This document shows positions 3,781 to 33,399 of a stretch of DNA of 34,674 nt, in pieces; position 1 is the stretch's first letter; every line of letters starts with the position of its first letter. The stretch is from an uncultured Verrucomicrobia subdivision 3 bacterium (GTDB taxonomy: Bacteria; Verrucomicrobiota; Verrucomicrobiia; Limisphaerales; UBA11358): the NCBI GenBank assembly GCA_903911825.1, contig CAIWFB010000314.1:1-34674 (forward strand), in the 5' to 3' direction. The notes beneath the pieces were generated by a model that saw only the letters and a list, made by a program, of their open reading frames with translations, was not told where the DNA came from and ran no database searches. The translations under genes and the position numbers were made by a program.

Positions 3781-4034
3781 CGCCCACTGAAAATGCCTTG
3801 CTCGCCGAGTTGACTCAACTCGCAGAAACCGTTCGCCAAATGCCGACGGCGAATCCCAAGCCCAGCCTGCTGCCGATTTTCGCGCGGCTAGATGAATTGA
3901 CGCATCAGCTGCCACGTTCCGCCGACCCGCAATTGCTGCATTACCTGCACAAGAAAAGTTACGAGAAGGCCCGGCTCTTTCTGCAAGGTCGCGATGCGGA
4001 AAATCAGGCGGGCAACTGTGGGCACCAACATTGA
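3777..4034 (+). CDS. Small hypothetical protein (85 aa), ATGA overlap with upstream gene
   Basis: Translationally coupled start; LLHYLHKKSYEKARLFLQGRDAE looks like a genuine protein core. Confidence 0.7.
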   Translation: MTPTENALLAELTQLAETVRQMPTANPKPSLLPIFARLDELTHQLPRSADPQLLHYLHKKSYEKARLFLQGRDAENQAGNCGHQH

Positions 4035-4112
4035 CGATTGGCGATTGACGATTTACGAGTCGCTTTCGTATTTCGTCGCTGCTCGTAAATCTTATATCGT
4101 AAATCGAAAATG
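4029..4112. repeat. Heptamer-periodic imperfect inverted repeat ending at the mnmE start codon
   Basis: CATTGACGATTGGCGATTGACGATTTACGAG / CTCGTAAATCTTATATCGTAAATCGAAAATG; 24 of 31 arm positions complementary, inner 10 bp perfect; heptamers ATTGACG ATTGGCG ATTGACG ATTTACG. Confidence 0.88.
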
Positions 4113-5489
4113 TTTTCCGACACCATCGTTGCCATCGCCACGCCCCTCGGCGAAGGTGGCCTCGCGGTCATCCGCATTTCCGGCGCGCAGGCGTTCGCCA
4201 TCACGGATCAATGTTTTCAGCCCGTGGGCAAAACGTCGCTGAAGCCTACGGTCGCGCCGACGCACACGATTCAATACGGAAAAATCCTGCGCGACGGACA
4301 AGTCGTGGATGAGGTTCTCCTTGCCGTCCTCCGCGCGCCCCGCACTTTCACGCGCGAAGACACAGTGGAAATTTCCTGCCACGGCGGCTTGCTTCCCACG
4401 AAGCTCGTGCTGGATACGTTGCTGGCGCACGGTGCCCGTATGGCCGAGGCGGGGGAATTCACCAAACGCGCGTTTCTCAATGGACGCATTGATCTCGCGC
4501 AAGCCGAGGCGGTGGCGGACTTGATCCATTCACGCACCGAACTCGCGCTCGCCGCCGCCAATGAACAGCTCGCCGGCAAACTGTCGCAGCGCATCAATCT
4601 ACTCCGCGACGACTTGATGCTGACGATGGCGCACGTCGAGGCGCACATTGATTTTCCCGACGAAGATATTTCGCCCGACACGAAAGAAGATTTACTGGCG
4701 CGTTTGGAAAAAGGCGTGGTGTTCATGGATGAATTGCTGCGCACGGCGAACGAAGGTCAACTGCTGCGACGCGGTATTCGTGCGGCGATCATTGGTCGGC
4801 CCAACGCGGGCAAATCCAGTTTGCTGAATCAATTGCTTGGTCGCGACCGCGCCATCGTCTCACCGATTGCCGGCACCACGCGCGATACCATTGAGGAAAC
4901 CGCCAATATCCGTGGGCTGCCCGTGGTGTTTATCGACACCGCTGGCTTGCGTGAAGCGCTAGATGAAATTGAAGTCGAGGGCATCCGTCGCAGCCGCGAA
5001 TCGCTCGCGCAAGCGGAGTTGATCTTGCATGTTCTCGATGCGAGCGAGCCATTGACAGAGGCCGATAAAAATTATCTCACCGAGTTCGCCGACAAGAAAC
5101 GGATTCTTGTCCTGAACAAAACCGATCTGCCAGTGAAGTTGGAATTGCCCCCAACCACCAGCAACCAGCAACCAGCAACCAGCAGCGTTTGTTCCTTAAG
5201 CGGGCAGGGGATTGAGGGTTTGAAAGACGCTATCAAAGCGCTCGTTTGGGCGGGCGAAATCAAAGCCGAAATGTTGCAAGTCGCCATCAACTCGCGCCAT
5301 CAAGACGCACTCAACCGCGCCCGGGGCACGACACGTCAAGCGGCGGATGCCTTGCGCGCCGACGCTACGCTGGAACTGGTCGCGATGGATCTGCGCATCG
5401 CTGCTAATGCCGTAGGCGAAATCGTGGGCAAGACGACGACCGAAGATCTGCTCGATTCTATCTTCAGCACGTTCTGTATCGGGAAGTAA
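4110..5489 (+). CDS. mnmE: tRNA uridine-5-carboxymethylaminomethyl(34) synthesis GTPase
   Basis: MFSDTIVAIATPLGEGGLAVIRISG, GRPNAGKSSLLNQLLGRDRAIVSPIAGTTRDT, NKTD, C-terminal FCIGK. Confidence 0.97.
   Translation: MFSDTIVAIATPLGEGGLAVIRISGAQAFAITDQCFQPVGKTSLKPTVAPTHTIQYGKILRDGQVVDEVLLAVLRAPRTFTREDTVEISCHGGLLPTKLVLDTLLAHGARMAEAGEFTKRAFLNGRIDLAQAEAVADLIHSRTELALAAANEQLAGKLSQRINLLRDDLMLTMAHVEAHIDFPDEDISPDTKEDLLARLEKGVVFMDELLRTANEGQLLRRGIRAAIIGRPNAGKSSLLNQLLGRDRAIVSPIAGTTRDTIEETANIRGLPVVFIDTAGLREALDEIEVEGIRRSRESLAQAELILHVLDASEPLTEADKNYLTEFADKKRILVLNKTDLPVKLELPPTTSNQQPATSSVCSLSGQGIEGLKDAIKALVWAGEIKAEMLQVAINSRHQDALNRARGTTRQAADALRADATLELVAMDLRIAANAVGEIVGKTTTEDLLDSIFSTFCIGK
5151..5185 (+). repeat. 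In-frame heptamer tandem repeat within mnmE
   Basis: CCAACCA CCAGCAA CCAGCAA CCAGCAA CCAGCAG; encodes PTTSNQQPATSS. Confidence 0.92.
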
Positions 5490-5499
5490 TTTCCCCAGT

Positions 5500-5805
5500 T
5501 CAGCACCACTGCTTGCCCAGGCTGTCGATGCCGCTGCGCTTCAAATCTTCCGGGGTCATCGCGGCGTGCAATTGGACATCCGCTTCAAACGTCAGAAACC
5601 AAGGCTCGGCCAAAGCGGGAATCTGGGAAGCCTCCGCCAGATTCACCACCAGAAAGGCGCTGCGATGCCCGTGATGATCCGTGAATAAAACAGATTCCGG
5701 TTTGATAGCGTCCAGAATTTTACCGATCTTCGCGCCCGCCGTGCCGTCTTTCACAGCCGCGTTAAAAGTGTGATGGGGAATGGTGACGGTCATTAACATG
5801 CGCAT
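5500..5805 (-). CDS. Hypothetical protein (101 aa)
   Basis: Intact ORF with AGGA-type SD upstream (CAGGAAACTATATG); family not identified. Confidence 0.65.
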   Translation of the reverse strand: MRMLMTVTIPHHTFNAAVKDGTAGAKIGKILDAIKPESVLFTDHHGHRSAFLVVNLAEASQIPALAEPWFLTFEADVQLHAAMTPEDLKRSGIDSLGKQWC

Positions 5806-5896
5806 ATAGTTTCCTGTGGTTGGGTGTTGAGGTCGCTAACGCCCCAAAATTGGCAACGACTCAGCACGACGGCAAGCTCTAACCCGATTTCAATTT

Positions 5897-5924
5897 TTGA
5901 CACGCGCCTGCGCCTGTTTATCCT
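5897..5924 (+). promoter_or_regulatory. Candidate sigma70-type promoter for aroB
   Basis: TTGACA-N16-TATCCT, placed so that initiation would fall at or next to the aroB ATG (5931). Confidence 0.45.
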
Positions 5925-5930
5925 TTGACC

Positions 5931-7010
5931 ATGCGCATCGTTCCCGTTTCTCTTGGTAATCGCAGCTACGCCATCAAAGTTGGCGGCGGCTTGCTGGCTC
6001 ATCTTGGCGTGGAGTGCGCGGCGCTCAAACTTGGTCAGCGTTGCGCTGTCATCACCGACTCGAACGTCGGCAAACATTATGCCAAGGTGGCGGTGAAATC
6101 GCTCGTGGCGGCGGGCTTTGAACCATTTCTCATCACCGTGCCCGCTGGCGAAAAATCCAAGCGCATCGCGATGGTGGAGAAATGTTACGACCAACTCGCA
6201 GCGCATCGGCTGGAACGGAAATCTTTCATCGTCGCGCTCGGCGGCGGCGTGGTGGGCGATCTCGCGGGCTTCGTGGCGGCAACGTATTTGCGCGGCATCC
6301 CGTTCGTGCAAGTCCCGACGACCTTGCTGGCGCAGGTCGATAGCTCTGTCGGCGGCAAGACGGGCGTAAACCTCAAGGCAGGCAAAAATCTCGTCGGCGC
6401 GTTTTACCAACCGCGACTGGTGCTATGTGATTTGGATGCGTTCAAGACGCTGCCTAAGCGTGAATATATTTCCGGTCTCGCGGAAGTCATCAAATACGGT
6501 GTCATCTACGACGCCGATCTCTTCGCGCAACTCGAACGCAACCTGCCCAAGCTGCTCAAACGCGACCCGACGACGCTCGCCGCCGTCGTGGCGCGCTGCT
6601 GTGAGATCAAGGCGGACGTGGTCGGTCAGGACGAAACGGAAACTGGCTTGCGTGCCATTTTGAACTTCGGCCATACCATCGGCCACGGCATTGAGAACAG
6701 TTTCGGCTACGGAAAATTTTTGCACGGCGAAGCGATTGCCATCGGCCAAGTCGCAGCGGCAAAATTATCGCATCAGCTACTCGGCTTGCCCGCAAACGAT
6801 TCGGCGCGGATGGAAAAACTATTCGTTCTAGCCGGTTTGCCCGTGCGCATCAAACTCACGGCAGCTCAGCGCAAAAAGCTTTTCGCCGCGATGCTGCTCG
6901 ACAAAAAAGTCAGCGGCGGCGAAGTGAAGTTCGTGCTGGCCGAAAGCATCGGCAAAGTGGCTTGGGGGCAGAAGGTCGCCACCGATTTGATCAATGGCGT
7001 TTTGCCTTGA
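5931..7010 (+). CDS. aroB: 3-dehydroquinate synthase
   Basis: ALGGGVVGDLAGFVAATYLRGIPFVQVPTTLLAQVDSSVGGKTGVNL...KNLVGAFYQP...LNFGHTIGHGIE; ATG at 5931 preferred over TTG at 5925. Confidence 0.96.
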   Translation: MRIVPVSLGNRSYAIKVGGGLLAHLGVECAALKLGQRCAVITDSNVGKHYAKVAVKSLVAAGFEPFLITVPAGEKSKRIAMVEKCYDQLAAHRLERKSFIVALGGGVVGDLAGFVAATYLRGIPFVQVPTTLLAQVDSSVGGKTGVNLKAGKNLVGAFYQPRLVLCDLDAFKTLPKREYISGLAEVIKYGVIYDADLFAQLERNLPKLLKRDPTTLAAVVARCCEIKADVVGQDETETGLRAILNFGHTIGHGIENSFGYGKFLHGEAIAIGQVAAAKLSHQLLGLPANDSARMEKLFVLAGLPVRIKLTAAQRKKLFAAMLLDKKVSGGEVKFVLAESIGKVAWGQKVATDLINGVLP

Positions 7011-7013
7011 GGT

Positions 7014-7835
7014 TTATTGCAAGGCGGCGCGTGGGATGAGGGTTAGTTTCATCCCGTAAACCAGAAACGCCACCAGCCCAAAATACATGCCCGCCATCTT
7101 CAGGCGTTGGATCGGCGTGACTTCGTAGTAGCGGATTTCTTCCTCCGTCTTCGCGCGGAACAACGAAAAGAGGCGCGGCAGTGACATGATTAAAATCAAC
7201 AGCAGAATGAAGTTAAAATGCACGATGATCAGGCCAATCATAATGATGAAACCCACAATCCACAGCCACGGCGAAAGCGCGCTGACGATTCGCCCGCCAT
7301 CAAGAAAGCCGATGGGCGCGAGGTTGAATAGATTCAGAAAAAATCCGGTGTAAGCCAGCGCGCGGAACATCTGGTTCCCAGTCTGCAAATAAATGGCCTC
7401 ACACGCCACCGCTCCGAGCGTGCCGAGCAACGGGCCGCCGATGCCGACTTCCGCCTCGATCCACGCGTTGCGCGGCGCTTCCTTGAGCGCGATGACGGCG
7501 CCCATGAACGGAATGAACATGGGCCAACCGGTTTTAAGTCCGCATTGACGGGCCGCGATCAGGTGCCCCAGTTCGTGGATGAAAATCAACAGCACGAAGC
7601 CGACGGCAAATTGCCAGCCCCACAACATGGCGTAAGCGCCGATGGAAAGAATCATCGTCCCGCCCGTTTTGAGAAACGGCAGGATGAATTTTACCTTGGT
7701 CAGTAACTTGAAAAGGAAAAGCAGCCCGATGCCGACGGGGCCCAGATTTTTCATCACTTTTTGCCAATAAGTCGGCTCCGGCGGTGGCGGCGGCGGTGGC
7801 GCGGCGATGATAGGTGGCGGTGGGTTCGGTTCCAT
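7014..7835 (-). CDS. Site-2 protease (peptidase M50) family membrane metalloprotease
   Basis: HELGH motif and LNLAPIGFLDGGRIV in a multi-TM protein; Pro-rich N-terminus; ATG at 7835 preferred. Confidence 0.85.
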   Translation of the reverse strand: MEPNPPPPIIAAPPPPPPPEPTYWQKVMKNLGPVGIGLLFLFKLLTKVKFILPFLKTGGTMILSIGAYAMLWGWQFAVGFVLLIFIHELGHLIAARQCGLKTGWPMFIPFMGAVIALKEAPRNAWIEAEVGIGGPLLGTLGAVACEAIYLQTGNQMFRALAYTGFFLNLFNLAPIGFLDGGRIVSALSPWLWIVGFIIMIGLIIVHFNFILLLILIMSLPRLFSLFRAKTEEEIRYYEVTPIQRLKMAGMYFGLVAFLVYGMKLTLIPRAALQ

Positions 7836-7960
7836 GGCGAAATGATTTAACGTCCGGTGAAGAAACGTCAAACGGAATCAGGTGGTCGCCGCGCAATAAT
7901 TTTTTGGATTCCGTTTTACACGCCGCACGCGCTCCGTTAAATCATCGTCCCACTTTTGAA

Positions 7961-10246
7961 ATGAACGAAGCGCACATTCTGAAAATTGCCGGTGAACTAA
8001 AAATTCAGCCGCGCCAGGTCTTAGCCACCGCCAAACTCTTTGCCGAAGGTGCCACGGTGCCTTTCATCTCGCGTTATCGCAAGGAAGCCACGGGTGAATT
8101 GGACGAAGTTGCAGTCACGAACATTCGCGAACGTCTGATTTCATTAGCCGATCTGGATAATCGCCGCGATGCCATCGTTAAATCCCTTGTCGAGCGCAAC
8201 CTGTTGACCGATCAACTCAAGGCCGACATCGCCGCTGCCGACAACGTCACGCGGCTGGAAGATATTTATTTGCCGTTCCGTCCGAAGCGTCGCACCCGCG
8301 CGATGGTCGCTAAGGAACAAGGTTTGGAACCGCTGGCCGACCTGCTGTTTCAGCAACAATCCACCGCAGACCCGCTGGCGGAAGCGGCGAAATATGTCAG
8401 CACGGAAAAAGGCGTGGCGGATGTCCTGGCAGCGTTAGCGGGAGCACGGGACATCATTGCGGAACGCGTCAGTGACGATGCGAATGCCCGCGCCAAGTTG
8501 CGCGATTTGTATTGGGCCGAAGGCGTCATCAAATCCAAAGTGTTGCTGGGCAAAGAAGAGCCCGGCGCGAAGTTCAAAGACTATTTCGATTGGAGCGAAC
8601 CCATCAGCAAGATTCCCAGCCATCGTTTGCTCGCCATCCGGCGCGGCGAGACGGAAGGTTTTTTGATGATGCGCATGACGCCGCCGGAAGAATCAGTGCT
8701 GCCGATGCTCGAGCCGATGTTCGCCACCGGCAAAGGCCCCGCGGCGGATCAGATTCGCCTTGCGGTGCAGGATGCTTACAAACGGTTGCTCGGCTCGGCG
8801 ATTGAAGTCGAGTTGCGCATGGAAACCAAGAAACGCGCCGACACGGAAGCGATTCGGGTGTTTGCAGATAATTTGCGCGAACTACTGCTCGCCTCGCCGC
8901 TCGGGAGCAAAAACATGCTGGCGATTGATCCGGGTTTTCGCACCGGCTGTAAAATTGTCTGTCTCGATCGCCAAGGAAAATTGCTGCACAACGACGTGGT
9001 TTATCCGACGGTTTCCAGCGCGGGCGAAGTGCGGGAGGCGGCGATGGCGTTGTTGAGCATGATCAAGAAATACAACATCGAAGCCATCGCCATCGGCAAC
9101 GGCACGGCAGGTCGCGAAACGGAAACGTTTATCAAGGCGCTCAAGCTGCCTTCGACGATTCCCGTGGTGATGGTGAACGAAAGTGGCGCTTCGATTTACT
9201 CTGCATCCGACGTGGCGCGCGAAGAATTTCCCACGCAAGACCTCACGGTGCGCGGTGCGGTTTCGATTGGCCGTCGCCTCATGGACCCGCTCGCCGAACT
9301 CGTGAAGCTCGATCCGAAATCCATCGGCGTCGGCCAGTATCAACACGACGTGGAGCAGGGCGCTCTCAAGCGCAGTCTCGATGATGTGGTGATCAGTTGC
9401 GTGAACGGCGTCGGCGTGGAATTGAACACGGCGAGCAAACAATTGATGGCTTACGTTTCCGGTCTTGGCCCCGCGCTCGCGGCGAACATCGTGGCGTATC
9501 GCAATGAAAACGGGCCGTTCAAGTCGCGCGCGGAATTGAAAAAAGTTCCGCGTCTCGGCGAAAAAGCGTTTGAGCAAGCCGCCGGGTTTTTACGCATCCG
9601 CGACGGCGCGCATCCGCTGGACGCGAGCGCGGTTCATCCGGAGAGTTACGAACTGGTGGATCGCATGGCCAAGGATTTGAACTGCACCGTCAGCGACCTG
9701 ATGCGTGATGCGGGCTTGCGGCAGAAAATTCAATTACCGAAATACGTCAATGAAACCGTGGGCTTGCCGACGTTGACAGACATTCTCGGCGAACTCGCGA
9801 AGCCCGGCCGCGACCCGCGCCAGAAGTTTGAAGTCTTCTCGTTCCAAAGCGGCGTGGAAAAAATGGAGGACTTGAAACCGGGCATGAAGTTGCCCGGCAT
9901 TGTGACGAACGTCACCGCGTTCGGCGCGTTCGTGGACATCGGCGTGCATCAAGATGGGCTGGTGCACGTCAGTCAGTTGTCTGACCGCTTCATCAAAGAC
10001 CCGTCCGAAGTCGTGAAAGTTTCGCAGCGCGTCATGGTCACGGTGACGGAGGTGGATTTGCCGCGCAAACGCATCGCTCTCTCGATGAAGGCCGCGCCAG
10101 TCATCGGCGCGAGCACGAGCGGCACACGCACTTCACCGAGCGCGCCGCGTCCGGCGGGCGGCGGTTTTAATCGTCCCGCGCAACCGGCGCAACCGGCGGC
10201 GGCGGATTGGTTCACGGCGGCGATGAACAAAAACAAGAGTAGCTAA
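7961..10246 (+). CDS. tex: Tex-family S1 RNA-binding transcription accessory protein
   Basis: ATVPFISRYRKEATGELDE, LAIDPGFRTGCKIVCLD, IGVGQYQHDVEQGAL, C-terminal S1 domain GIVTNVTAFGAFVDIGVHQDGLVHVSQLSD. The ORF-track start at 7814 is an upstream extension. Confidence 0.94.
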   Translation: MNEAHILKIAGELKIQPRQVLATAKLFAEGATVPFISRYRKEATGELDEVAVTNIRERLISLADLDNRRDAIVKSLVERNLLTDQLKADIAAADNVTRLEDIYLPFRPKRRTRAMVAKEQGLEPLADLLFQQQSTADPLAEAAKYVSTEKGVADVLAALAGARDIIAERVSDDANARAKLRDLYWAEGVIKSKVLLGKEEPGAKFKDYFDWSEPISKIPSHRLLAIRRGETEGFLMMRMTPPEESVLPMLEPMFATGKGPAADQIRLAVQDAYKRLLGSAIEVELRMETKKRADTEAIRVFADNLRELLLASPLGSKNMLAIDPGFRTGCKIVCLDRQGKLLHNDVVYPTVSSAGEVREAAMALLSMIKKYNIEAIAIGNGTAGRETETFIKALKLPSTIPVVMVNESGASIYSASDVAREEFPTQDLTVRGAVSIGRRLMDPLAELVKLDPKSIGVGQYQHDVEQGALKRSLDDVVISCVNGVGVELNTASKQLMAYVSGLGPALAANIVAYRNENGPFKSRAELKKVPRLGEKAFEQAAGFLRIRDGAHPLDASAVHPESYELVDRMAKDLNCTVSDLMRDAGLRQKIQLPKYVNETVGLPTLTDILGELAKPGRDPRQKFEVFSFQSGVEKMEDLKPGMKLPGIVTNVTAFGAFVDIGVHQDGLVHVSQLSDRFIKDPSEVVKVSQRVMVTVTEVDLPRKRIALSMKAAPVIGASTSGTRTSPSAPRPAGGGFNRPAQPAQPAAADWFTAAMNKNKSS

Positions 10247-10251
10247 ATTTT

Positions 10252-10941
10252 ATGGCCAAAGAAACGAAACCGAAAAAATCCAAACAGGATGAGCCGGCGC
10301 AGTTGCTGGCTTTGCTCCGCACCATTTTGCCGAAGGTAGAAATTGATTCGGCGCTAGCGGATAGAATTTATTCCGCGTTCGAGGCGGAGCTGCGTGCGAA
10401 GAACCGCGTTAACTCGTTTGAGAAATTCTGTGAGCGCATCGCGCTGCCGGATTTGGAGGCGAAGACGCTGGAAGAAGTGAAGCAGCAATTGGTCGCAGGT
10501 TTCGGTGATGTGGATTTGGACATTGAGCCGAACGAGGATGGCAAGGGTTTGCGCGTGGATGTTTCACTGCCGGACGGCACGCAGTTTCACAGCCGGATTT
10601 TGGTGCGTCCACCCGGCGCGGAAGGCAGCGACGAACAGGAGATCACGCTGAAGTTTGTGTCGTTCCCCGTGGCCTTGCCGGGCGATGCGGAAATGCTCTG
10701 GGCGCTCGCGAAGCGTGAGAACATGACGAATGACGAAGCGGCGATTGCGCTGACGAAAATCGAGGACGAGTTCTGGTCATCCAAGGCCGGGCAGAAGCTG
10801 ATCAAAGATCGCGTCGAGAAAAGTTTTCCGGAATTCATCGCCCGCGTGCCGGCAGGAATGTTGGGCGATGTGGGTTTGAAGCGGCATTACAAATTGCCCG
10901 AGACGCTGAAGGTGCTGCGCACGCCGATGAAGAAGGCTTGA
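10252..10941 (+). CDS. Hypothetical protein (229 aa), immediately downstream of tex
   Basis: Intact ORF 5 bp after tex; no family recognised. Confidence 0.75.
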   Translation: MAKETKPKKSKQDEPAQLLALLRTILPKVEIDSALADRIYSAFEAELRAKNRVNSFEKFCERIALPDLEAKTLEEVKQQLVAGFGDVDLDIEPNEDGKGLRVDVSLPDGTQFHSRILVRPPGAEGSDEQEITLKFVSFPVALPGDAEMLWALAKRENMTNDEAAIALTKIEDEFWSSKAGQKLIKDRVEKSFPEFIARVPAGMLGDVGLKRHYKLPETLKVLRTPMKKA

Positions 10942-11010
10942 AGAGGCTTAGGGCTTTTCATTTGGGATGCTTGAACTAGATTTTGCGAAAGCAATTTAAG
11001 TCATCACAAA

Positions 11011-11901: not shown

Positions 11902-11915
11902 CGTATTTCTAATTC

Positions 11916-12836: not shown

Positions 12837-12842
12837 GCTAGT

Positions 12843-13697: not shown

Positions 13698-13858
13698 GGC
13701 CTTTGTTAACACGCAAAAAAAAATCCGACAAGCGTGAAAGTCGTGGCCTTGACTTGTGACGAATTTCCGGCTGAATAAAGCCACATTTTTCCAAAAAAAC
13801 ATTTAACCAAAACACCACCGCGTTCGTCCACCAACTGGATTCTAACAATAAATATTCT

Positions 13859-15230: not shown

Positions 15231-15255
15231 TACCAAGAATGGCGAAGGGGTTGGC

Positions 15256-24435: not shown

Positions 24436-24449
24436 TCCGCTCCGCGCGG

Positions 24450-25262
24450 CTAATCGGTCGCGTTCTTCAAAACCAGATTCAGAATCTTGCTGATGTCCTC
24501 ATTGTGCTGCTGCGAGGCCATGCCAAACGCATGGACGATGTCTAAAACAAAAGCCGCATTCTCCCGCGTGAAATCGTAGTAAACCGTCTCTTTCGATTTG
24601 GCCGGACTGCTCTTGCGCAGCGCCCCATCCGCCGTCAAAACCTGATTCAGCGGCAGGCAGACATAAACCATCGCTTGATAACCGACTGCCCGTTGCTTCT
24701 GCTTTAATTGGATTTGCACGGAACCATACGGCGAATTTTTGGTGAACTGCGGAATACGTTGCACGGCGCGCTGAAAACCGCCGGAAGCATTGTTCGTGTC
24801 CGTCTCCACTTGCATCGGCTGGCTCTCCTCAAAATCGGCGGCGGGAATTTTCTTCAACGCGGCAATTTCGGCGATGATTTGATTCGTGGACAACAGGCCG
24901 AGCCGCACGCTTTCAAAGAGGATCTTGGAAAGTTCGTGCCCGTGTTTCGTTTCGCCATTGCGCGTGAAAACAATCTGCGGCACGAGCGTGGGGCTGTTGG
25001 TGCCCGGAGTGTCGTAACCGATCTGCCATTCGAGATAATGCCTTTTGCCGAGCGCTGTTTTCATCGGTGCCAGCGGCAGGCCGAAACCATCTGAAGTGCG
25101 TTCTTTCACTCGCACTTTGCCGGTCACGTCCGTTAATGGCAGCCGCACGCGGACGCTGTCATTCGTGACGACGACGAGCACGGATTTGTAATCCGGATTC
25201 GCACCAAAGCCGTTCGCGACGAGCGCGAGCAGAACTAAACTGAACGCGGCGACTTTTTTCAT
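24450..25262 (-). CDS. Secreted hypothetical protein (270 aa)
   Basis: Signal MKKVAAFSLVLLALVANGFGA; intact ORF; family not recognised. Confidence 0.75.
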   Translation of the reverse strand: MKKVAAFSLVLLALVANGFGANPDYKSVLVVVTNDSVRVRLPLTDVTGKVRVKERTSDGFGLPLAPMKTALGKRHYLEWQIGYDTPGTNSPTLVPQIVFTRNGETKHGHELSKILFESVRLGLLSTNQIIAEIAALKKIPAADFEESQPMQVETDTNNASGGFQRAVQRIPQFTKNSPYGSVQIQLKQKQRAVGYQAMVYVCLPLNQVLTADGALRKSSPAKSKETVYYDFTRENAAFVLDIVHAFGMASQQHNEDISKILNLVLKNATD

Positions 25263-25336
25263 GAGGTTTTTTAGACAGAATTAACCAAATGTTTAGAATT
25301 ATTTCCGGCTGAAATCATTTGGCTGATTTTGGCTTA
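25263..25336. repeat. AT-rich imperfect inverted repeat filling the whole stop-to-ATG gap upstream of the 270-aa gene
   Basis: Gene-strand: TTTAAGCCAAAATCAGCCAAATGATTTCAGCCGGAAATAATTCTAAACATTTGGTTAATTCTGTCTAAAAAACCTC-ATG; shares two blocks with the element at 33311-33399. Confidence 0.75.
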
Positions 25337-27886
25337 AACCGCTTCCGGCTTGATGATAGCGATGACGGCGGTTTCCGGTTTCAAATACTTTTGCGCGACG
25401 GCTTTGATCTGTTCGAGCGTCACGGCTTCGTATTTGGCGTCGTCTTGTTCCGTCCGTTGCCAGCCTAGTCCGTAAAGTTCATCAAGCGACGTTGCCGAAG
25501 CAAGTTGGCCGAGGTCGGCGCGGGCGATTTTCTTCTGCCCCACGATTTTCGCTTTGGCGCGCTTCAATTCTTCCGCCGTCAACCCTTCGGTGCGTAACAA
25601 TTCGGCTTCCTTGAGCAACTCCGCTTCGACCTGCGCGGTCTTCGTCGGTTCCGTGCCGGTGTAAAACGCGAAGTAGCCCGGCGCAATACCACACAGCGTT
25701 TGCGCGCCGACGTAGTAAGCGAGGCCAAGTTGTTCGCGGATGCGGAGAAATAGGCGTGAGCCAAGGTCGCTGCACGTCTCTTGCAAGATTTCCAGCGCGT
25801 AACGATCTTCGCTGAACATCGTCGTGCCAGGAAATCCGATGACGAGCACGGCTTGTTTTTTATCGCGCGTTTCGTTCACGCGTTTCGTAGCAGTTGCTGG
25901 TTGAAAGTTGAAGGTTGAAGGTTGAGTAACCTTGCCCGTCCAGTTGCCAAATGCTTTTTCTACGGCAGCTTTCACGTTCGCGGTGTTGACGTCACCGAAG
26001 ATGGCGATGACGCAATTATTCGGCACGGCGAGCTTTTGATAAAAGGCTTTGATGTCCGCGCCCGAGATTTTCGCCACGCTGGCTTCGGTGCCGCTGGGAT
26101 CAAGGCCGAAATTTTTTGCGCCAAACAGTTCGCGGCGCATTGCGAGGCTGGCGCTCTTGAGCAGATTGTCGCGGCGGGATTGGATGCCAGCAATCTGTAC
26201 TTCGCGTTCGCGTTCCAATTCGTCGGCGGGGAAAATCGGGTTCAAGATCACGTCTGCCATGAGTTCGAGGCCGATGGCAAAATCTTCCGTCAAGACTTCG
26301 GCGTTCACGCCGAAACTTTGGTTGCCGCCGTAGCTGTCAATGTGGCCGCCGACGGATTCGATTTCCACGGCGATCTGTTCGGCATTGCGCGTCGTGGTGC
26401 CCTTGATGAGTAACTTGGCGAGCAGCGAAGTGATGCCGTTGTTCACTTCGTTTTCCGCGAGCACGCCGCCTTGAAAGACCGCGCGAAATTCCACGAACGG
26501 CAGGCGATGATCTTCTTTCACCAGCAGCTTGATGCCGTTGGGTAAGTCAATTTTCTGAATCGGATGATCAGAATTCGTCTCAACGCTGGCCAACGCTTTG
26601 GGCGCGGTGCCTTCGGGCAGCAGCGCGTAGAGCGTGCGATTTTCCGGCGTGAGATAAGTGCAAGCTACGCGTTGCACATCGGCGGCGGTGACGCATTTGA
26701 CGGCGGCGAGGTAACGTTCGGAGAAATTCAAATCCTGCGCGGCTAGCCAGTTACCGCCGAGATTTTGCGCCTGACCTTCCATCGTTTTGCGTGAAGAAAG
26801 CGTGGCGGAGATGAATTGCTTAACGGCTTTGGACAACTCTTCGGTGGAAACGAACGACGTTTTTACTTTTTCAACTTCGGCCAGAATCGCCTCATTCGAA
26901 GCCGTAAATTCTTCGCCATCCACGACGGCGCTGATGCCGAATAGTCCGGGCAAACCCGGGCTGTAAGTCCACGCGTCCACGTGATGCACGACGCCAAGTT
27001 TTTCGCGCACTTGTTGGTGCAAGCGGGAGCTGCGTCCGCTGCCGAGCAACACCGCGAGCACATCCAAAACGGGCACATCGGCGTGGCGCACTTCGGGAAT
27101 GTGCCAAGCAAAATGCGAGTGGCCGAGTTCCACGGCGGCTTCCTCGATGATTTCGCGCGGCGCAGTCTGGCGCGGTTCTTCGGGCAAAACCATCGGCGGC
27201 ATCGCGCGCGATTTGCTTTGAGCGTAAGCCGCTTTGATTTGCGCGACGACTTCGTCGTTTTTTACATCGCCCGCGACGACGTAGAACACATTATTTGGTG
27301 CGTATTTTTCCGTGTAATAGGCGCGAATGTCGTCAGGTTTGATTTCGTTGAAAATGTCGAGATAGCCGATGATCGTGAAGCGATACGGGCTTTTCGTATA
27401 GGCGACTTCAAACAGGCGGCGGCTCGCGCGGCGACCAGGATCGTCCTGGCACATATCCATTTCGCGGCGGATGACGTCGAGCTCCTTGGCCAATTCCTCC
27501 GGCGGCAACGACGCGTGTTGCATGATGTCGCAGAGAATATCAATGGCCTTCACGGCGCCCGTGTTCGGCACGTCAATGTGATACACCGTGCGGTCGAAGC
27601 TGGTGTAGGCATTCATGTAGCCGCCCGCTTCCTGCACTTCCTGATCAATGCGGCTGCCAGGGCGCTTCGTCGTGCCTTTGAAGAGCATGTGTTCCAGCAC
27701 GTGCGAGAGACCGGCCCCCAACCACTTACCTTCGTGAATGCTGCCCGCAGCGCACCAAGCCTGCACGGAAACGACCGGTGCATTGTGATCTTCGCGGACG
27801 ATGAGCGTGAGCCCGTTTTCGAGCCGCGTGATTTTGACGCCGGGCGGAATCGCGGGGATTTCGGTGGTAGAAATTGGATTGGTCAT
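25334..27886 (-). CDS. M16 family zinc peptidase, two M16 units fused in one chain
   Basis: HVLEHMLFKGTTKRPG (HxxEH) in the first half, second M16-like half with GITSLLAKLLIKGTTTRNAEQIA lacking HxxEH. ATG at 27886 preferred. Confidence 0.92.
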   Translation of the reverse strand: MTNPISTTEIPAIPPGVKITRLENGLTLIVREDHNAPVVSVQAWCAAGSIHEGKWLGAGLSHVLEHMLFKGTTKRPGSRIDQEVQEAGGYMNAYTSFDRTVYHIDVPNTGAVKAIDILCDIMQHASLPPEELAKELDVIRREMDMCQDDPGRRASRRLFEVAYTKSPYRFTIIGYLDIFNEIKPDDIRAYYTEKYAPNNVFYVVAGDVKNDEVVAQIKAAYAQSKSRAMPPMVLPEEPRQTAPREIIEEAAVELGHSHFAWHIPEVRHADVPVLDVLAVLLGSGRSSRLHQQVREKLGVVHHVDAWTYSPGLPGLFGISAVVDGEEFTASNEAILAEVEKVKTSFVSTEELSKAVKQFISATLSSRKTMEGQAQNLGGNWLAAQDLNFSERYLAAVKCVTAADVQRVACTYLTPENRTLYALLPEGTAPKALASVETNSDHPIQKIDLPNGIKLLVKEDHRLPFVEFRAVFQGGVLAENEVNNGITSLLAKLLIKGTTTRNAEQIAVEIESVGGHIDSYGGNQSFGVNAEVLTEDFAIGLELMADVILNPIFPADELEREREVQIAGIQSRRDNLLKSASLAMRRELFGAKNFGLDPSGTEASVAKISGADIKAFYQKLAVPNNCVIAIFGDVNTANVKAAVEKAFGNWTGKVTQPSTFNFQPATATKRVNETRDKKQAVLVIGFPGTTMFSEDRYALEILQETCSDLGSRLFLRIREQLGLAYYVGAQTLCGIAPGYFAFYTGTEPTKTAQVEAELLKEAELLRTEGLTAEELKRAKAKIVGQKKIARADLGQLASATSLDELYGLGWQRTEQDDAKYEAVTLEQIKAVAQKYLKPETAVIAIIKPEAV
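25893..25927. repeat. In-frame heptamer tandem repeat within the M16 gene
   Basis: + strand GTTGCTG GTTGAAA GTTGAAG GTTGAAG GTTGAGT (five units); codes for TQPSTFNFQPATA on the minus strand. Confidence 0.92.
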
Positions 27887-28000
27887 TGCGGGCAAAATTT
27901 GAGCGACAAGGCTATGCGCAAACGCCTTCCGTCGCCAATTTTATTTGCTAAGGCAAATTACTCATTGCGGCAGCGGGTGGTTTTGGTATCTTCACAACTC

Positions 28001-28016
28001 GTTTTTACGTAAAAAC
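28001..28016. promoter_or_regulatory. Perfect 16-bp palindrome upstream of the small basic protein gene
   Basis: GTTTTTACGTAAAAAC, 15 bp before the ATG at 28032. Confidence 0.5.
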
Positions 28017-28031
28017 CAATAATTCTATTTT

Positions 28032-28187
28032 ATGTCACAGCATCCCAGCCTGCGCGCCGCTTCCACCCTCGGTGGCAAACGTAACGTCCTCAAGCGTTTT
28101 GAACGCACTGCGCTCCTCAAGAAGCGCGGTCAATGGAAAGAGGGCGACAAGATCACCAATCTCCGCAAGACCAAGCCGGACGCGTAA
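28032..28187 (+). CDS. Small basic protein (51 aa), resembles the PVC-superphylum signature small basic protein family
   Basis: Manually translated, below the ORF-track cutoff: MSQHPSLRAASTLGGKRNVLKRFERTALLKKRGQWKEGDKITNLRKTKPDA*. Confidence 0.85.
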   Translation: MSQHPSLRAASTLGGKRNVLKRFERTALLKKRGQWKEGDKITNLRKTKPDA

Positions 28188-28194
28188 CGCGTCG

Positions 28195-28245
28195 ATTCGT
28201 TGAATCGTTAATCGTTCAACCGATGCGATGGTTCAACGGTTCGCG
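28195..28245. repeat. 7/8-bp periodic repeat between the small basic protein gene and the pseudouridine synthase gene
   Basis: TCGTTGAA TCGTTAA TCGTTCAA then CCGATGCGATGGTTCAACGGTTCG with inverted GTTGAA/TTCAAC pieces. Confidence 0.65.
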
Positions 28246-28256
28246 CTTCAATTATT

Positions 28257-28970
28257 TTGAGCGTTCGTCTCCAGAAATTTCTCGCCGATGCCGGGGTGGC
28301 TTCACGCCGGGGCGGCGAGCAATTCATTTTAGAAGGTCGTGTGTCCGTCAACGGGCACGTTGTTCGCTTGCTGGGTTCCAAAGTCGATCCTCATCACGAC
28401 GAGGTGTCGGTGGACGGCAAAGTGGTTTCCGAAAAGCGCAAACATTACCTCGCGCTGCATAAGCCCAAAGGTTGCGTCTGTTCCCACAAGGATGAATTGG
28501 ATCGCCCGACCATCTACGAGTTGCTTCCGCCGGAATTGCACATCGTCAGCTCAGTGGGTCGCTTGGATTACAACAGCGAAGGATTGATTTTTCTCACCAA
28601 TGATGGACAATTTGCGCTGCGCTTGACGCATCCGCGCTACGGTATCCGCAAGAAATATTTAGTGCATGTGGACGGGCAAGTGACTCCCGCGATGATTGAC
28701 CTTTTCAAGAAGGGGATTTTCCACGAGGGCGAGCGTTTGAAAGCACTGTCGGCGCATATCATCTCCGCCACGCGCGCCAAAAGCGTTGTAGAAATGGAGC
28801 TGGGCGAAGGTAAGAATCGCGAAGTTCGTCGATTGTTTGAATCGCAGGCAATGACGGTGAAGAAACTTTTGCGGACCCAGATTGGCCGGATTAAACTAGG
28901 CGAATTGAAAGTTTGTAAATGGCGCGCGTTGACGCCCGCCGAAATTAAAACTCTGATTTCAGATTTATGA
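28257..28970 (+). CDS. RsuA/RluB-family pseudouridine synthase (TTG start)
   Basis: S4 domain VRLQKFLADAGVASRRGGEQFILEGRVSVNG; GRLDYNSEGLIFLTNDG catalytic motif; GKNREVRRLFE. Confidence 0.92.
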   Translation: MSVRLQKFLADAGVASRRGGEQFILEGRVSVNGHVVRLLGSKVDPHHDEVSVDGKVVSEKRKHYLALHKPKGCVCSHKDELDRPTIYELLPPELHIVSSVGRLDYNSEGLIFLTNDGQFALRLTHPRYGIRKKYLVHVDGQVTPAMIDLFKKGIFHEGERLKALSAHIISATRAKSVVEMELGEGKNREVRRLFESQAMTVKKLLRTQIGRIKLGELKVCKWRALTPAEIKTLISDL

Positions 28971-30136
28971 AAATGAATTATTGGTTGGTTCTAGGTTTGA
29001 TGGTGGCCACGAGTGCGGTGGCGCAGGTGAACACGAATGCGTTGCCCGCGATTCCCGCGCCCGTCGTGGTTGCCCCGGTTGTCGCCACACCGGCGACGAA
29101 CGTCGTCACGCCCAAGCTTAAGAAAGTTACTAAAGCCGCGCCCGTCAAAGCCAAGAAGAAAGCTGCTGCTAAGTCCACTGCCAAACCGGTCGTGCACGCT
29201 GCAAAAATTTCCGCCGCGCCCGTCACGCTCGTTCCCGGTGTCGCCACAGTAGATGCGGAAAACGTCAACTTTCGCGGTCAAGCTGGCTTGAAAGGTGAAA
29301 CCGTTGGCCAGTTCAAAAAGGGCGATAGTGTCACGGTGCTCGCGCAAATTAATCTCGATAAACCGGCCGCTGGCGAACCCTCGCAATGGGCCAAAGTCGC
29401 GCTGCCTGCTGGCACGAAAGTTTGGGTCAACGCTCGCTTCGTGGATGCCACCAATAAAGTTGTGACCGTGAAGAAATTGAATCTACGGGCCGGTCCGGGC
29501 GAAAATTACAGTGTGCTCGGAGTGATTGAAAAAGGCGCTTCGATTACTGAAGTTTCCGTCAAAGGTGACTGGACGCAGATTGAAACACCCACGAATGCCT
29601 TCGCGTTTGTGGCTGCCAGTTATTTGAAGCAAGACGCCACGGTTATTCCCGCCACCACGCCGGTCGCCGTGATTCCGCCGACCGCCGAAGTGCCTGTGCC
29701 GACGCCAACCACGGTGGTGGCTGAACAACCCATTGTTACGCAGCCTGCGCCCGTCGTTCCCGAACCCGCGCCCGTCGTCGCGCCAGTGGTTGTTCCCCCT
29801 GTCGTCATCCCGGAAGCGCCGGTGATTGTGGATACCAATCCGCCGCCGCCGCGCATTATCACGCACGAAGGCTGGGTGCGCTCCTCCGTTAGCGTCGTCG
29901 CCCCGACTTATTTTGAACTTTACGACCGCGAAAATAACAAAGCGATCAACTACCTTTACACCACGACTACCAATTTGAATTTGGCTCGTTACAATGGTTT
30001 GCAAATCGTGGTCACTGGCGAAGAAGGTTTAGACGCCCGCTGGAAAGATACGCCGGTCTTGAGCATTCAGAAGATTTTGGTGCTTTCCTCGAATGCCCCG
30101 TCTTCCCAAGTCGAACCCGCCGCTAAAAAGAAATAA
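28967..30136 (+). CDS. Secreted/anchored protein with two bacterial SH3-like domains and Pro/Val-rich linker
   Basis: Signal peptide; VDAENVNFRGQAGLKGETVGQFKKGDSVTVLA and VKKLNLRAGPGENYSVLGVIEKGASITEV; ATGA overlap with upstream gene. Confidence 0.8.
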   Translation: MKMNYWLVLGLMVATSAVAQVNTNALPAIPAPVVVAPVVATPATNVVTPKLKKVTKAAPVKAKKKAAAKSTAKPVVHAAKISAAPVTLVPGVATVDAENVNFRGQAGLKGETVGQFKKGDSVTVLAQINLDKPAAGEPSQWAKVALPAGTKVWVNARFVDATNKVVTVKKLNLRAGPGENYSVLGVIEKGASITEVSVKGDWTQIETPTNAFAFVAASYLKQDATVIPATTPVAVIPPTAEVPVPTPTTVVAEQPIVTQPAPVVPEPAPVVAPVVVPPVVIPEAPVIVDTNPPPPRIITHEGWVRSSVSVVAPTYFELYDRENNKAINYLYTTTTNLNLARYNGLQIVVTGEEGLDARWKDTPVLSIQKILVLSSNAPSSQVEPAAKKK

Positions 30137-30139
30137 TCC

Positions 30140-31030
30140 GTGGCTGCTGCCAACCTCATTGATGGGCGTGCGATTGCCGCGCAGATTCAATCGGAATTGG
30201 TCGCGCGGGTCGCGGTTCTGAAATCAGCGGGTGTGATTCCTGGTTTGGCTTTCGTGCGCGTGGGCGAAGATCCGGCTTCCAAAGTATACGTTGGTCGCAA
30301 AGAAAAAGCCTGCGCCGAACTGGGCATCGTTTCTGAGACACATCTTCTTCCGCAAGCTGCTACCGAAGTCGAATTACTGGCGCTCATCGCAAAATTAAAC
30401 GCGACTTCCCATTTGCACGGCATTCTGGTGCAAGCGCCGTTACCTAAACAGATTTGCGAATCGGTTATTTTTTCCACTGTGTTACCAACCAAAGACGTGG
30501 ATGGTTTTCATCCGGTCAACGTCGGTAAATTGATGCTCGGTGACCATACTGGCTTCCGCCCTTGCACCCCAGCGGGCGTGGTGGAATTGCTCATTCGTTC
30601 TGGCGTGAAAACGGAAGGTGCGGAAGTCGTCGTGCTGGGTCGTGGTAATATCGTCGGCAAACCGATGGCCGCGATGCTGTGCCAAAAGGGCCAGGCGGCG
30701 AATAGCACGGTGACGATTTGTCATTCTGCAACGCGCGACATCAAAGCTCACTGTCTGCGAGCGGATATCATTGTGGCAGCGATGGGCGTGGCCGAATTTC
30801 TCAAAGCGGACATGGTCAAGCCTGGCGCGGTGATCATGGATGTGGGCGTCAATCGCGTGCCCGACGCGACCTCCAAGACCGGCACCAAATTGGTCGGCGA
30901 CGTGGATTTTGCCAACGTGCAACCGATTGCCGGGCGCATCACGCCGAACCCCGGCGGGGTTGGCCCGATGACGATTGCGATGCTTTTGCAAAACACCGTT
31001 CACGCAGCTGAACTGAAAATTAAATCCTAA
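30140..31030 (+). CDS. folD: Bifunctional methylenetetrahydrofolate dehydrogenase/cyclohydrolase (GTG start)
   Basis: LIDGRAIAAQIQSEL, GLAFVRVGEDPASKVYVGRKEKAC, GILVQAPLPKQI, KDVDGFHPVNVGKL, NPGGVGPMTIAMLLQNT. Confidence 0.96.
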   Translation: MAAANLIDGRAIAAQIQSELVARVAVLKSAGVIPGLAFVRVGEDPASKVYVGRKEKACAELGIVSETHLLPQAATEVELLALIAKLNATSHLHGILVQAPLPKQICESVIFSTVLPTKDVDGFHPVNVGKLMLGDHTGFRPCTPAGVVELLIRSGVKTEGAEVVVLGRGNIVGKPMAAMLCQKGQAANSTVTICHSATRDIKAHCLRADIIVAAMGVAEFLKADMVKPGAVIMDVGVNRVPDATSKTGTKLVGDVDFANVQPIAGRITPNPGGVGPMTIAMLLQNTVHAAELKIKS

Positions 31031-31045
31031 AAATCTAAAACTATC

Positions 31046-31468
31046 ATGCAAGCCTCCCGCATTCTCCCCGACCTCCAATGCTCCCTTATGTGCGAAGAAA
31101 TTCGCCAAGAAGTGAATGGCAATTTGTTCATCATCGGCGTCGTGAATGTCGTGCGCGTGCCGCAATTACCCATCGTCGCGAATCGCATCTGCATCTATAA
31201 CCGTTGGACGGCGGGACTCGGTCAGTTCAACGAAAACACCCGCCTCATCGCGCCGGATCAAACCACGGTCTTGAGCAAAGGTGAGATGAAATTTGAATTG
31301 AAAGATCCGTCCGCCAGCGCCAGCAATGTGATGTTCTTCGGTCAGGTCAAATTTGAAACTGCTGGCACTTATTTTGTAGAAGTGCTGGTTGATGATGTGA
31401 TGAAACTCCGTTATCCCGTCGTCGTGGTTCACACTCCGCCGCCGACTGCGCCGACGGAGCAAAAATAA
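31046..31468 (+). CDS. DUF6941-like conserved protein (140 aa)
   Basis: LPDLQCSLMCEEIRQEVNGNLFIIGVVNVVRVPQLP pattern; family assignment from memory. Confidence 0.6.
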   Translation: MQASRILPDLQCSLMCEEIRQEVNGNLFIIGVVNVVRVPQLPIVANRICIYNRWTAGLGQFNENTRLIAPDQTTVLSKGEMKFELKDPSASASNVMFFGQVKFETAGTYFVEVLVDDVMKLRYPVVVVHTPPPTAPTEQK

Positions 31469-31477
31469 TTCCGCCCG

Positions 31478-32275
31478 GTGAGCGCCTTCACCGAACCCAC
31501 TTTCGCTTGGGAACCCGTCACGCCCCGCGGCGTGGCGGCTTTTGCTCGTGCCTCACTCGAACGGCTGATCGTGGTGCAATGCTTGGTGGCTATCCTCGCC
31601 ACGGCGGTCACGGTCTGGTTGTTGAGTGATAGTATTTTCCCAGTCATTGATGCCGCAGTGAACGAACTGCCCGCGCAAGGTGAAATCCGGGCGGGCAAAT
31701 TACTTTGGTCAGATGATTCGCCGGTGATGTTAGCGGAGGGCATGACGCTCGCCTTTTCCGTAGATCTAGAACACGGCGGTGTGCTGCGTTCGCCTGCGGA
31801 TTTTCAATTCGAGTTCGGTAAAGATTCCATCCGCATCTTTTCGCTCTTCGGCGAAGGAGAATTAGATTACCCGGCCAACTTTCCGGCTAACCGGCTGGAT
31901 TTACGTCCCAAATGGGGCGCTTGGTCGCCCGAAATCCTCGCGCTCGTCGCGCTGGGAACTTTTTTTGGTCTGTTGCTCACGTGGGCGACGCTGGCCACGA
32001 TTTATTTCCTGCCCGTCTGGTTGATTTGTTTCTTCACGAATCGTGATTTGAGTTTGGTTGCGAGTTGGAAACTGGCCGCCGCCGCGCTACTGCCCGGTGC
32101 CTTGCTGCTTTCCGCCTCACTCGTGGCGTATGGTTTGGGCGTCTGTGACCTCGTGCAACTTTGTTTCGCCTTCGGGATGCACTTCGTCATCGGCTGGGTC
32201 TATCTCTTTGTCAGTCCGTTGTTTCTGAATCGTGCGCTGCCTGCCGAAAAGCCGAATCCGTTTGGTCATAAATAA
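31478..32275 (+). CDS. Integral membrane hypothetical protein (GTG start)
   Basis: Several hydrophobic segments; 9 bp after upstream gene. Confidence 0.7.
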   Translation: MSAFTEPTFAWEPVTPRGVAAFARASLERLIVVQCLVAILATAVTVWLLSDSIFPVIDAAVNELPAQGEIRAGKLLWSDDSPVMLAEGMTLAFSVDLEHGGVLRSPADFQFEFGKDSIRIFSLFGEGELDYPANFPANRLDLRPKWGAWSPEILALVALGTFFGLLLTWATLATIYFLPVWLICFFTNRDLSLVASWKLAAAALLPGALLLSASLVAYGLGVCDLVQLCFAFGMHFVIGWVYLFVSPLFLNRALPAEKPNPFGHK

Positions 32276-32282
32276 ATAGCGT

Positions 32283-32335
32283 GGCGGCTGGTTGTGGCCA
32301 GAAATGGCCACACGACATTTGCGTTGCCAGCAGCC
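32283..32335. other. Nested stem-loop in intergenic spacer
   Basis: TGTGGCCA-gaaa-TGGCCACA perfect 8-bp stem inside outer GGCGGCTGG / CCAGCAGCC (one mismatch); no T-tract. Confidence 0.55.
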
Positions 32336-32376
32336 TAATGTCGAATTAACTTAGGGCTCACAACTAATTTTACCCT

Positions 32377-32601
32377 ATGTCGAACGTCGCAAAAGAAGCC
32401 TCATCGTCGGCGAACGATTTGTTGAAAAACTCATCGCTCTACCGCGAGTTTCAAGCCGAGCGCGAAGAAATTCTCCGTCACAAATGGATTGAATCTGAAA
32501 AAGCCGGGCGTGATGTCGGTTTTGAGCAAGCGCTGACCGATTGGATCATCAAGCACCGTTCCACTTGGCGCAAAAATCGTCAGGCCGCCGCGACGAATTA
32601 G
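32377..32601 (+). CDS. Small hypothetical protein (74 aa)
   Basis: MSNVAKEASSSANDLLKNSSLYREFQAEREEILRHKWIESEKAGRDVGFEQALTDWIIKHRSTWRKNRQ; intact, plausible composition. Confidence 0.75.
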   Translation: MSNVAKEASSSANDLLKNSSLYREFQAEREEILRHKWIESEKAGRDVGFEQALTDWIIKHRSTWRKNRQAAATN

Positions 32602-32624
32602 TTCGATAAAATTTATTCCTTTAA

Positions 32625-32644
32625 CGCCGCCCTGCGAGGTGGCG
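32625..32644 (+). promoter_or_regulatory. Candidate PyrR-binding loop upstream of pyrR
   Basis: CGCCGCC-CTGCGA-GGTGGCG: 7-bp stem (one G-U) and hexaloop matching CNGNGA of the PyrR-binding consensus. Confidence 0.75.
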
Positions 32645-32672
32645 AAGGAAATTATGAAAGCCCCACGCACCA

Positions 32673-32718
32673 CGCGAATCAGCTCCGCCCAGCGGAGTCG
32701 GTTCGCGATTTTTATTTT
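32673..32718 (+). terminator. Intrinsic terminator in the pyrR leader (candidate attenuator)
   Basis: CGCGAATC-AG-CTCCGC-CCA-GCGGAG-TC-GGTTCGCG, then ATTTTTATTTT. Confidence 0.8.
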
Positions 32719-32735
32719 GCCTGCTGTTTCAGAAC

Positions 32736-32763
32736 TCTCAACCATCCACTTTCAACTCTCAAC
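32736..32763 (+). repeat. Heptamer repeat just upstream of pyrR ATG
   Basis: TCTCAAC CATCCAC TTTCAAC TCTCAAC, then TCATTTTA-ATG. Confidence 0.8.
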
Positions 32764-32771
32764 TCATTTTA

Positions 32772-33311
32772 ATGCCTGAAGCCACCGTCATCCTCGACGC
32801 CAAAGTCATCCAACGTGCGCTGACTCGCATCGCCCACGAAATCGCCGAGCGCAATGAAGCCAGCGCCGAGGTCGTCTTGGTGGGTATTCCCGTCGGCGGC
32901 GATCACCTAGCCGCACGGTTGGGCAAAATTCTCGCGGGCATCTGGAATCATCCTGTGCCTGTCGGCAATCTCGACGTGACCATGCACCGCGATGATTTGG
33001 ATCAGCGCGCCGCACCGACGATTTATCCCACTGTCATGCCGTTCGATGTCACTGGCAAAACCGTCGTGTTGGTGGACGACGTCCTGTTCACCGGTCGCAC
33101 CACGCGCGCCGCGATGGATGCGCTCAATGATTTCGGTCGCCCCAAGAAAATTCAACTCGCCGTGCTCATCGACCGTGGTCACCGCGAATTGCCCATCAAA
33201 GCTGATTTCGTCGGCAAGAACGTGCCAACGGCGCATGACGAAAAAATTTCCCTGCTGCTCACCGAATCCGGTGCGGCCAAGGACGAGGTTTTATTGAAGA
33301 AAAAACTTTAG
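32772..33311 (+). CDS. pyrR: Bifunctional pyr operon transcriptional regulator/uracil phosphoribosyltransferase
   Basis: VVLVGIPVGGDHLAARLGKIL, PRPP loop TVVLVDDVLFTGRTTRAAMDAL, LAVLIDRGHRELPIKADFVGKNVPT. Confidence 0.95.
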   Translation: MPEATVILDAKVIQRALTRIAHEIAERNEASAEVVLVGIPVGGDHLAARLGKILAGIWNHPVPVGNLDVTMHRDDLDQRAAPTIYPTVMPFDVTGKTVVLVDDVLFTGRTTRAAMDALNDFGRPKKIQLAVLIDRGHRELPIKADFVGKNVPTAHDEKISLLLTESGAAKDEVLLKKKL

Positions 33312-33399
33312 ACCGAATTAACAGAATGAACCGAATGATTTCAACGCACACGAAAGCCAAAATTCAATTCTGATAATTTTGTAAATTCTGTCAAAAAAT
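33311..33399. repeat. 8-bp-periodic imperfect inverted repeat filling the pyrR-pyrB gap
   Basis: GACCGAATTAACAGAATGAACCGAAT / ATTCTGATAATTTTGTAAATTCTGTC; 20 of 26 arm positions complementary; ends at pyrB ATG. Confidence 0.85.

Follow-up and report, generated by a model that had tools for sequence, protein, structure and literature searches.

Short tandem repeats with a period of 7 bp lie in gaps between genes and inside two enzyme genes, mnmE and an M16-family peptidase gene, in a 34,674-nucleotide stretch of an uncultured Verrucomicrobia subdivision 3 bacterium of the Limisphaerales (contig CAIWFB010000314.1, our C314; the whole stretch is hereafter called the window). We found that such short imperfect heptamer runs are common to the Limisphaerales, where they occur in gaps and, in frame, in enzyme loops of most relatives. 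Since the period stays at seven while the unit changes by species, the arrays point to a habit of DNA copying in this lineage and not to a gene switch. At a probability of roughly 60%, we consider that they arise by lineage-wide slippage in a 7-nt register from chance seeds, with continual turnover, template switching for the inverted pairs and retention under weak constraint.

The genome to which the window belongs (G000) is a metagenome-assembled genome (MAG) of 3.9 Mb in 354 contigs, with a completeness of 91.5% and a contamination of 5.4%. In 765,615 bases taken from it as sampled stretches, 21 arrays of period 7 were found at a cut-off of at least 16 matches in 21 positions, compared to 0.3 in shuffles, and 9 compared to 0 at a cut-off of at least 17/21. 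Across the sampled genome the repeats are therefore far commoner than in shuffled sequence. The window is denser in arrays than its own genome, because 5 of the 21 and 3 of the 9 fall inside it. At 16/21, periods 6, 9, 10 and 12 were likewise above the shuffles, with 11-18 arrays, and a clear lead of period 7 is confined to stricter cut-offs, with 6 arrays at 18/21 compared to at most one for any other period except 14, its double.

Furthermore, we scanned 277 kb of mnmE and M16 neighbourhoods in relatives (cut-off 17/21). Here 16 arrays had period 7 and one had period 8, while periods 4-6 and 9-12 gave none; 13 of the 16 fall in the two loops already seen in the window, which makes this count dependent on the choice of locus. 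Stretches of other relatives, some of them chosen for already holding a pattern match, showed a period-7 peak in several genomes, for instance G028 with 12 arrays of period 7 and none of period 8. The stretches scanned from G053 and G001 showed none. When patterns were counted over 97 relatives, CAACNNNx4 was present in 72 and GATTNNNx4 in 74, with the reversed control near zero in most, although reversed TTAG is a weakened control for the unit because its background is about six times rarer than that of GATT. The CAAC and GATT classes correlate among 49 congeners (Spearman 0.46, P=0.001, kinship ignored), and six congeners of 88-96% completeness (G010, G011, G043, G044, G047 and G054) hold neither. 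The period-8 form CAACNNNNx4 is concentrated in few genomes, such as G082, G087, G005 and G085, which makes the preferred period itself a lineage trait. CAAC-core arrays of period 8 (CAACGATT, CAACCCTT and CAACCATT) are abundant in these four genomes and in G023, and some genomes of this group hold few CAAC arrays of period 7. Among the matches listed, comparable arrays also occur in Cyanobacteria, Bacteroidota, Planctomycetota, Acidobacteriota and others.

At orthologous sites the period recurs and the unit does not. In MnmE, the G4-G5 motif loop has the unit ACCAGCA in the window and in L096, CAACTCT/CAACCCT in L083, TCACTCG in L095 and CATTCCG in L103; other relatives have a plain 60-nt loop or palindromic inserts. 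The palindromic inserts in L091, L092 and L108 are unrelated and in frame. The M16 linker holds a period-7 array in 10 of 30 species, with CAACCTT-type units as well as CAGAATY (L138), AAATTTY (L120) and CCACCWT (L136), and the remaining linkers have no array or consist of diverged DNA encoding a similar peptide (e.g. QPATYNLQPLTA in G053). On the tree of these 30 M16 sequences the array label needs eight changes, at least seven of which are forced by well-supported branches, decay below the detection threshold being scored as loss. The gap upstream of mnmE is filled by an inverted pair of GATTNAC units in the window and by an inverted pair of different, CAACTTT-type units in G004, and in several relatives it measures 0-12 nt or the genes overlap. 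Orthologous loci are thus not merely unique sequence that looks periodic in the window; relatives carry heptamer arrays with other units, or none.

The closest view of the process came from two sister species, G039 and G045, whose M16 genes are 88% identical and whose Mfd proteins we compared at four loops. Two of these loops differ by exactly 21 nt, that is three heptamers, in frame. The shorter alleles each hold one unit-like seed (CAAAGGC for AGAAGGC, and GCAATT for CAATCCG). The third loop is equally long in the two species and shows a concerted change of unit between them (TTTCAAA against ACTCAAA) in nearly every copy. The initial annotation, made from the letters of the window, had proposed an active process creating or spreading short-period repeats rather than decay. 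The exact in-frame steps in Mfd support creation, as do the differing units at orthologous loops and gaps and the at least seven label changes on the tree. Spreading of a repeat family is a different matter. The period recurs with many units, and a single spreading family was rejected for the genus. It holds for one genome alone, G063 (L142-L145), in which a dispersed element of about 170 bp carries two inverted heptamer arrays and accounts for the hundreds of matches in that genome.

Arrays are over-represented outside genes. Intergenic arrays make up 38 of 67, compared to a coding share of 85-89% of the bases, and about 43% lie inside genes. Within the genus, 9 of 14 gap arrays end at most 6 nt from a start codon compared to 4.6 expected, which lends modest support to the start-codon placement first suggested for the window, the test having used simple home-made gene calls and a cut-off set post hoc. 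No enrichment of gap arrays on the stop side was found in the genus. The coding arrays occupy linkers and loops of MnmE, the M16 peptidase, RecG and Mfd, and signal peptides of tandem paralogs in G038. The RecG gene of the window's own genome (L041:5488-7560) has two strong in-frame heptamer arrays and a shorter third one. In the G038 paralogs (L161:1250-6790), the arrays encode the hydrophobic core of the signal peptide, with units that differ among several of them. Many congeners' MutS matches break at profile positions ~373 and ~590 inside one longer open reading frame, and MutS therefore probably also carries loop insertions.

In the window itself, seven sites with 7- or 8-bp periodicity had been listed. 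For each site the best 21-position match at each period was compared to 300 dinucleotide shuffles, and Tandem Repeats Finder (TRF) was also run (Table 1). Four sites are strong period-7 arrays, with matches of 18/21 at 4029-4112, 21/21 at 5151-5185 (four perfect ACCAGCA copies by TRF), 18/21 at 25893-25927 and 16/21 at 32736-32763, none of which was reached in any of the 300 shuffles. The other three do not hold as 7- or 8-bp arrays: at 28195-28245 a hairpin (−28.7 kcal/mol, z −4.75) predominates over a weak period of 8 (13/21, P=0.01), 33311-33399 has a period of 9 confined to 33312-33338 (16/21), and at 25263-25336 none of the periods 5 to 10 went beyond chance in the shuffles. Because the sites claimed for it are non-periodic, weak or of period 9, an 8-bp family in the window was rejected; the period of 8 that had been lumped with 7 does exist, but is concentrated in other genomes.

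The units do differ between sites, as had been stated, though three of the four confirmed sites fit CAAYNNNx3 on one strand, a pattern with five matches compared to 0.12 expected, and the fourth, with the unit AACTCTC, shares the CAAC core. A CAAC or CAAT core, on either strand, is present in all four. Both in-frame enzyme cases are real. Filling of a gap from stop codon to ATG was found at 4029-4112, where an inverted pair occupies the space between the TGA (4033-4035) and the mnmE ATG (4110) and its two arrays together form a hairpin (fold of 4036-4109, −26.8 kcal/mol, z −3.8). The stretch 33312-33399 takes in a whole gap but is mostly aperiodic, and 32736-32763 stops 8 nt before the pyrR ATG.

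Table 1. Repeat arrays, their host genes and the remaining listed sites in the window.
Feature	Position	Strand	Called by
Period-7 array of CAATCGT/CAATCGC units (GATTGAC on +), beginning at the upstream gene's stop codon	4030..4058	-	TRF, pattern match, shuffles
Second period-7 array (TCGTAAA), inverted relative to 4030-4058, reaching the mnmE start codon	4083..4111	+	array scan, shuffles
mnmE, tRNA modification GTPase	4110..5489	+	
In-frame period-7 array ACCAGCA x4 in the MnmE G4-G5 motif loop (TSNQQPATSS)	5151..5185	+	TRF, shuffles
Gap behind the M16 gene, no periodicity	25263..25336	-	shuffles
M16-family peptidase with two M16 halves (YfmF/YfmH-like)	25334..27895	-	
In-frame period-7 array CAACCTT/CAACTTT/CAACCAG in the linker of the second M16 half (QPSTFNFQPATA)	25893..25927	-	TRF, pattern match, shuffles
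Gap separating the gene for the small basic protein from that for pseudouridine synthase, with a strong GTTGAATCG/CGATGGTTCAACG-type hairpin, weakly periodic	28188..28256	+	fold, shuffles
Period-7 array of CAACTCT-type units, last base 8 nt upstream of the pyrR start codon	32736..32763	+	TRF, shuffles
Period-9 stretch ACCGAATGA x3 in the pyrR-pyrB gap, remainder of the gap without period	33312..33338	+	TRF, shuffles

Among the other genes of the window is one for the small basic protein TIGR04137 (Chlam_Ver_rRNA). Another, at 24450-25262 on the minus strand and downstream of the M16 gene, encodes a 270-aa protein with a signal-peptide-like N-terminus, the C-terminal end of which matches the R.Pab1 restriction endonuclease family (Pfam PF09522, E 4.6e-15). 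A terminator role for the hairpin at 28188-28256 was rejected, as it has no T-tail and no terminator-like site was found there.

Slippage as the motor is favoured by the 21-nt steps, by units that changed in concert and by the absence of shared flanks, and the 7-nt indel steps between Cyanothece strains (PMC4679880) are a precedent for it. An array would start from a chance match about 7 nt, or one unit, apart, which would be extended as DNA synthesis slips in a 7-nt register. More slippage would then lengthen, shorten and homogenise the array, and with homogenisation the unit would drift in concert while the period stays fixed at seven, or at eight in some lineages. Inverted pairs would require an added template-switch step. 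Arrays would be retained where harm is small, in operon gaps, protein linkers and loops, and signal peptides, and are probably nearly neutral; within genes, only frame-keeping steps such as three units (21 nt) would survive. The coding frame does not set the number seven, since 5, 8, 10 and 11 are likewise coprime to three. Unit variation by G-T mispairing is unsupported, as neighbouring units differ by 747 transitions and 752 transversions.

Several observations weigh against slippage as a full account. If each arm of a pair is counted, 14 of the 67 arrays are accompanied by an inverted partner at a distance of up to 120 bp, compared to 0.35 expected, which goes beyond plain slippage, and so does the step from a 0-12 nt gap upstream of mnmE to a 75-nt hairpin. 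The fourth Mfd loop differs by 51 nt between G039 and G045, and a PabB/TrpE-like gene, with an array in one sister species alone, differs by 9 nt; neither is a whole number of units. The two 21-nt changes in Mfd are not polarised by an outgroup and may be expansion from the seed or contraction to one unit; in both directions they are whole-unit changes. The units are AT-rich (42% GC compared to about 56-65% for the genomes) and biased to CAAC, and hence are not random local 7-mers. Moreover, plain slippage does not account for the choice of 7, or of 8 in some genomes. The inverted pairs, the 9- and 51-nt changes, the composition of the units and the period-8 genomes together leave room for insertion, regulation or a fixed-step activity.

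Insertion fares best among these, though we regard it as unlikely: a transposase- or reverse-transcriptase-like activity would insert whole heptamer hairpins, which then decay. It would explain why several relatives have next to no mnmE gap where G000 and G004 have complete inverted hairpins of different units, and why inverted partners are so far above chance. The heptamers of G063 do belong to a dispersed element, and L091, L092 and L108 show that palindromes can enter the MnmE loop. However, the arrays read outside G063 share no flank, end or target duplication, and their units differ; the arrays read in the window's own genome likewise had no common flanks by which to class them as a mobile palindromic element or miniature inverted-repeat transposable element. 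The Mfd steps, furthermore, are exact whole units beside a seed, and the majority of arrays have no inverted partner.

Quite unlikely, in our view, is a regulatory role, in which the gap arrays ahead of start codons would serve a post-transcriptional regulator as repeated binding sites or as RNA hairpins, and the coding copies would be by-products. The proximity of gap arrays to start codons agrees with this, as does the folding of two window gaps, which is better than that of shuffles (z −3.8 and z −4.75), and the TAACTGA proposal in Beggiatoaceae (PMC4679880) is a precedent. However, unit and strand vary among arrays and orthologs, so that there is no constant site to be read, many relatives have no array upstream of mnmE, and a large share of arrays lies within genes. 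An Rfam search of the window matched no known RNA family, and the start-codon test rests on few sites.

Similarly doubtful is the idea that a DNA-synthesis or repair activity with a step independent of the unit, mostly 7 nt and in some genomes 8 nt, continually seeds the arrays and was lost in the array-free congeners. If it were true, heptamer arrays would become protein linkers and signal peptides. Its narrower form, a putative enzyme of DNA polymerisation or repair that writes the arrays in fixed steps of 7 nt (8 nt in some lineages), we hold to be highly improbable. The period as a lineage trait, the correlation of the CAAC and GATT classes, the six good-quality congeners lacking both, and the period kept while the unit changes all fit such an enzyme. 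Nevertheless, no candidate gene was found, and ordinary slippage with a lineage-specific footprint would give an identical picture. Y-family polymerases do not separate array-rich from array-free genomes, as a hit is missing in G010 and present in the other array-free genomes, nor does MutS, which is present in all six array-free congeners. Finally, chance periodicity or an assembly artefact is almost certainly wrong: three of the seven listed sites did fail and the genome is a fragmented MAG with some contamination, yet the excess over shuffles is large and frame-keeping arrays stand at orthologous sites of independently assembled genomes, including L178, a MAG contig named 'Limisphaerales bacterium' that is syntenic with the M16 peptidase region of the window (79% identity over 2.5 kb).

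Heptamer repeats are known from other bacteria. The GGGNATC (GGGAATC) heptamers of Xanthomonas and GGGGAYT of Nostoc (Rehm et al. 2015, PMC4692102) resemble the Limisphaerales arrays in having a dispersed 7-nt unit with variable positions that is over-represented in non-coding DNA, lies near the ends of open reading frames, often as convergent inverted pairs, and varies in length and sequence between related species. They differ in having one G-rich, quadruplex-forming unit per genome, whereas the Limisphaerales units we read (CAACNNN, GATTNNN and similar) are many, richer in AT and without G-tracts, change at the same site between species, and lie in genes, in frame, in nearly half of the cases. 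TAACTGA direct repeats occur in marine Beggiatoaceae, Cyanobacteria and Bacteroidetes, and indels between Cyanothece strains are mostly in 7-nt steps (MacGregor 2015, PMC4679880). These too are low-copy heptamer arrays. Many of them lie directly upstream of start codons, and some are interrupted by related 7-mers. However, TAACTGA is a fixed unit, mostly in a fixed orientation to the start codon and rare in open reading frames, whereas unit and strand vary in Limisphaerales and the array units read differ from TAACTGA, a TAAC core giving 0 period-7 sites in 1.35 Mb.

As cited in PMC4692102 and PMC4679880, Mrazek (2007) found heptanucleotides to be over-represented, and the commonest class, among the longer simple sequence repeats (SSRs) in prokaryotes and proposed slippage related to the polymerase footprint as the cause. 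In line with these SSRs and with the short tandemly repeated repetitive sequences of cyanobacteria, so far as those citations describe them, seven is the over-represented long repeat length in Limisphaerales, with a 7-nt tandem excess over chance at many dispersed loci and over-representation outside genes. By the same accounts, what sets the Limisphaerales arrays apart is that they are short and degenerate, turn over their units at orthologous sites and include period-8 lineages. Since there is no fixed unit and the unit definitions of both named families fail, we class the arrays as a variant among bacterial heptanucleotide repeats. The Rickettsia palindromic element type is a further parallel, since there too in-frame repeats are accommodated by the surface loops of core enzymes. 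Each of those elements, however, is a single mobile palindrome inserted into a protein, whereas the heptamer arrays share no element sequence. In the literature searched, which included few subscription papers, no report of these repeats in Verrucomicrobiota was found.

Why heptanucleotides dominate among the longer tandem repeats of bacteria has been an open question since the first counts. The Limisphaerales are a natural experiment on it: some orthologous sites have arrays and others lack them, the unit changes at a constant period, and in-frame 21-nt steps lie next to visible seeds. They also offer genomes that use eight and close relatives free of arrays, and so allow a direct test of the slippage hypothesis. 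In addition, the arrays visibly supply ordinary enzymes with new peptide linkers and signal-peptide cores. They also caution that a short insertion in an enzyme of this kind can be born of repeats and not of function.

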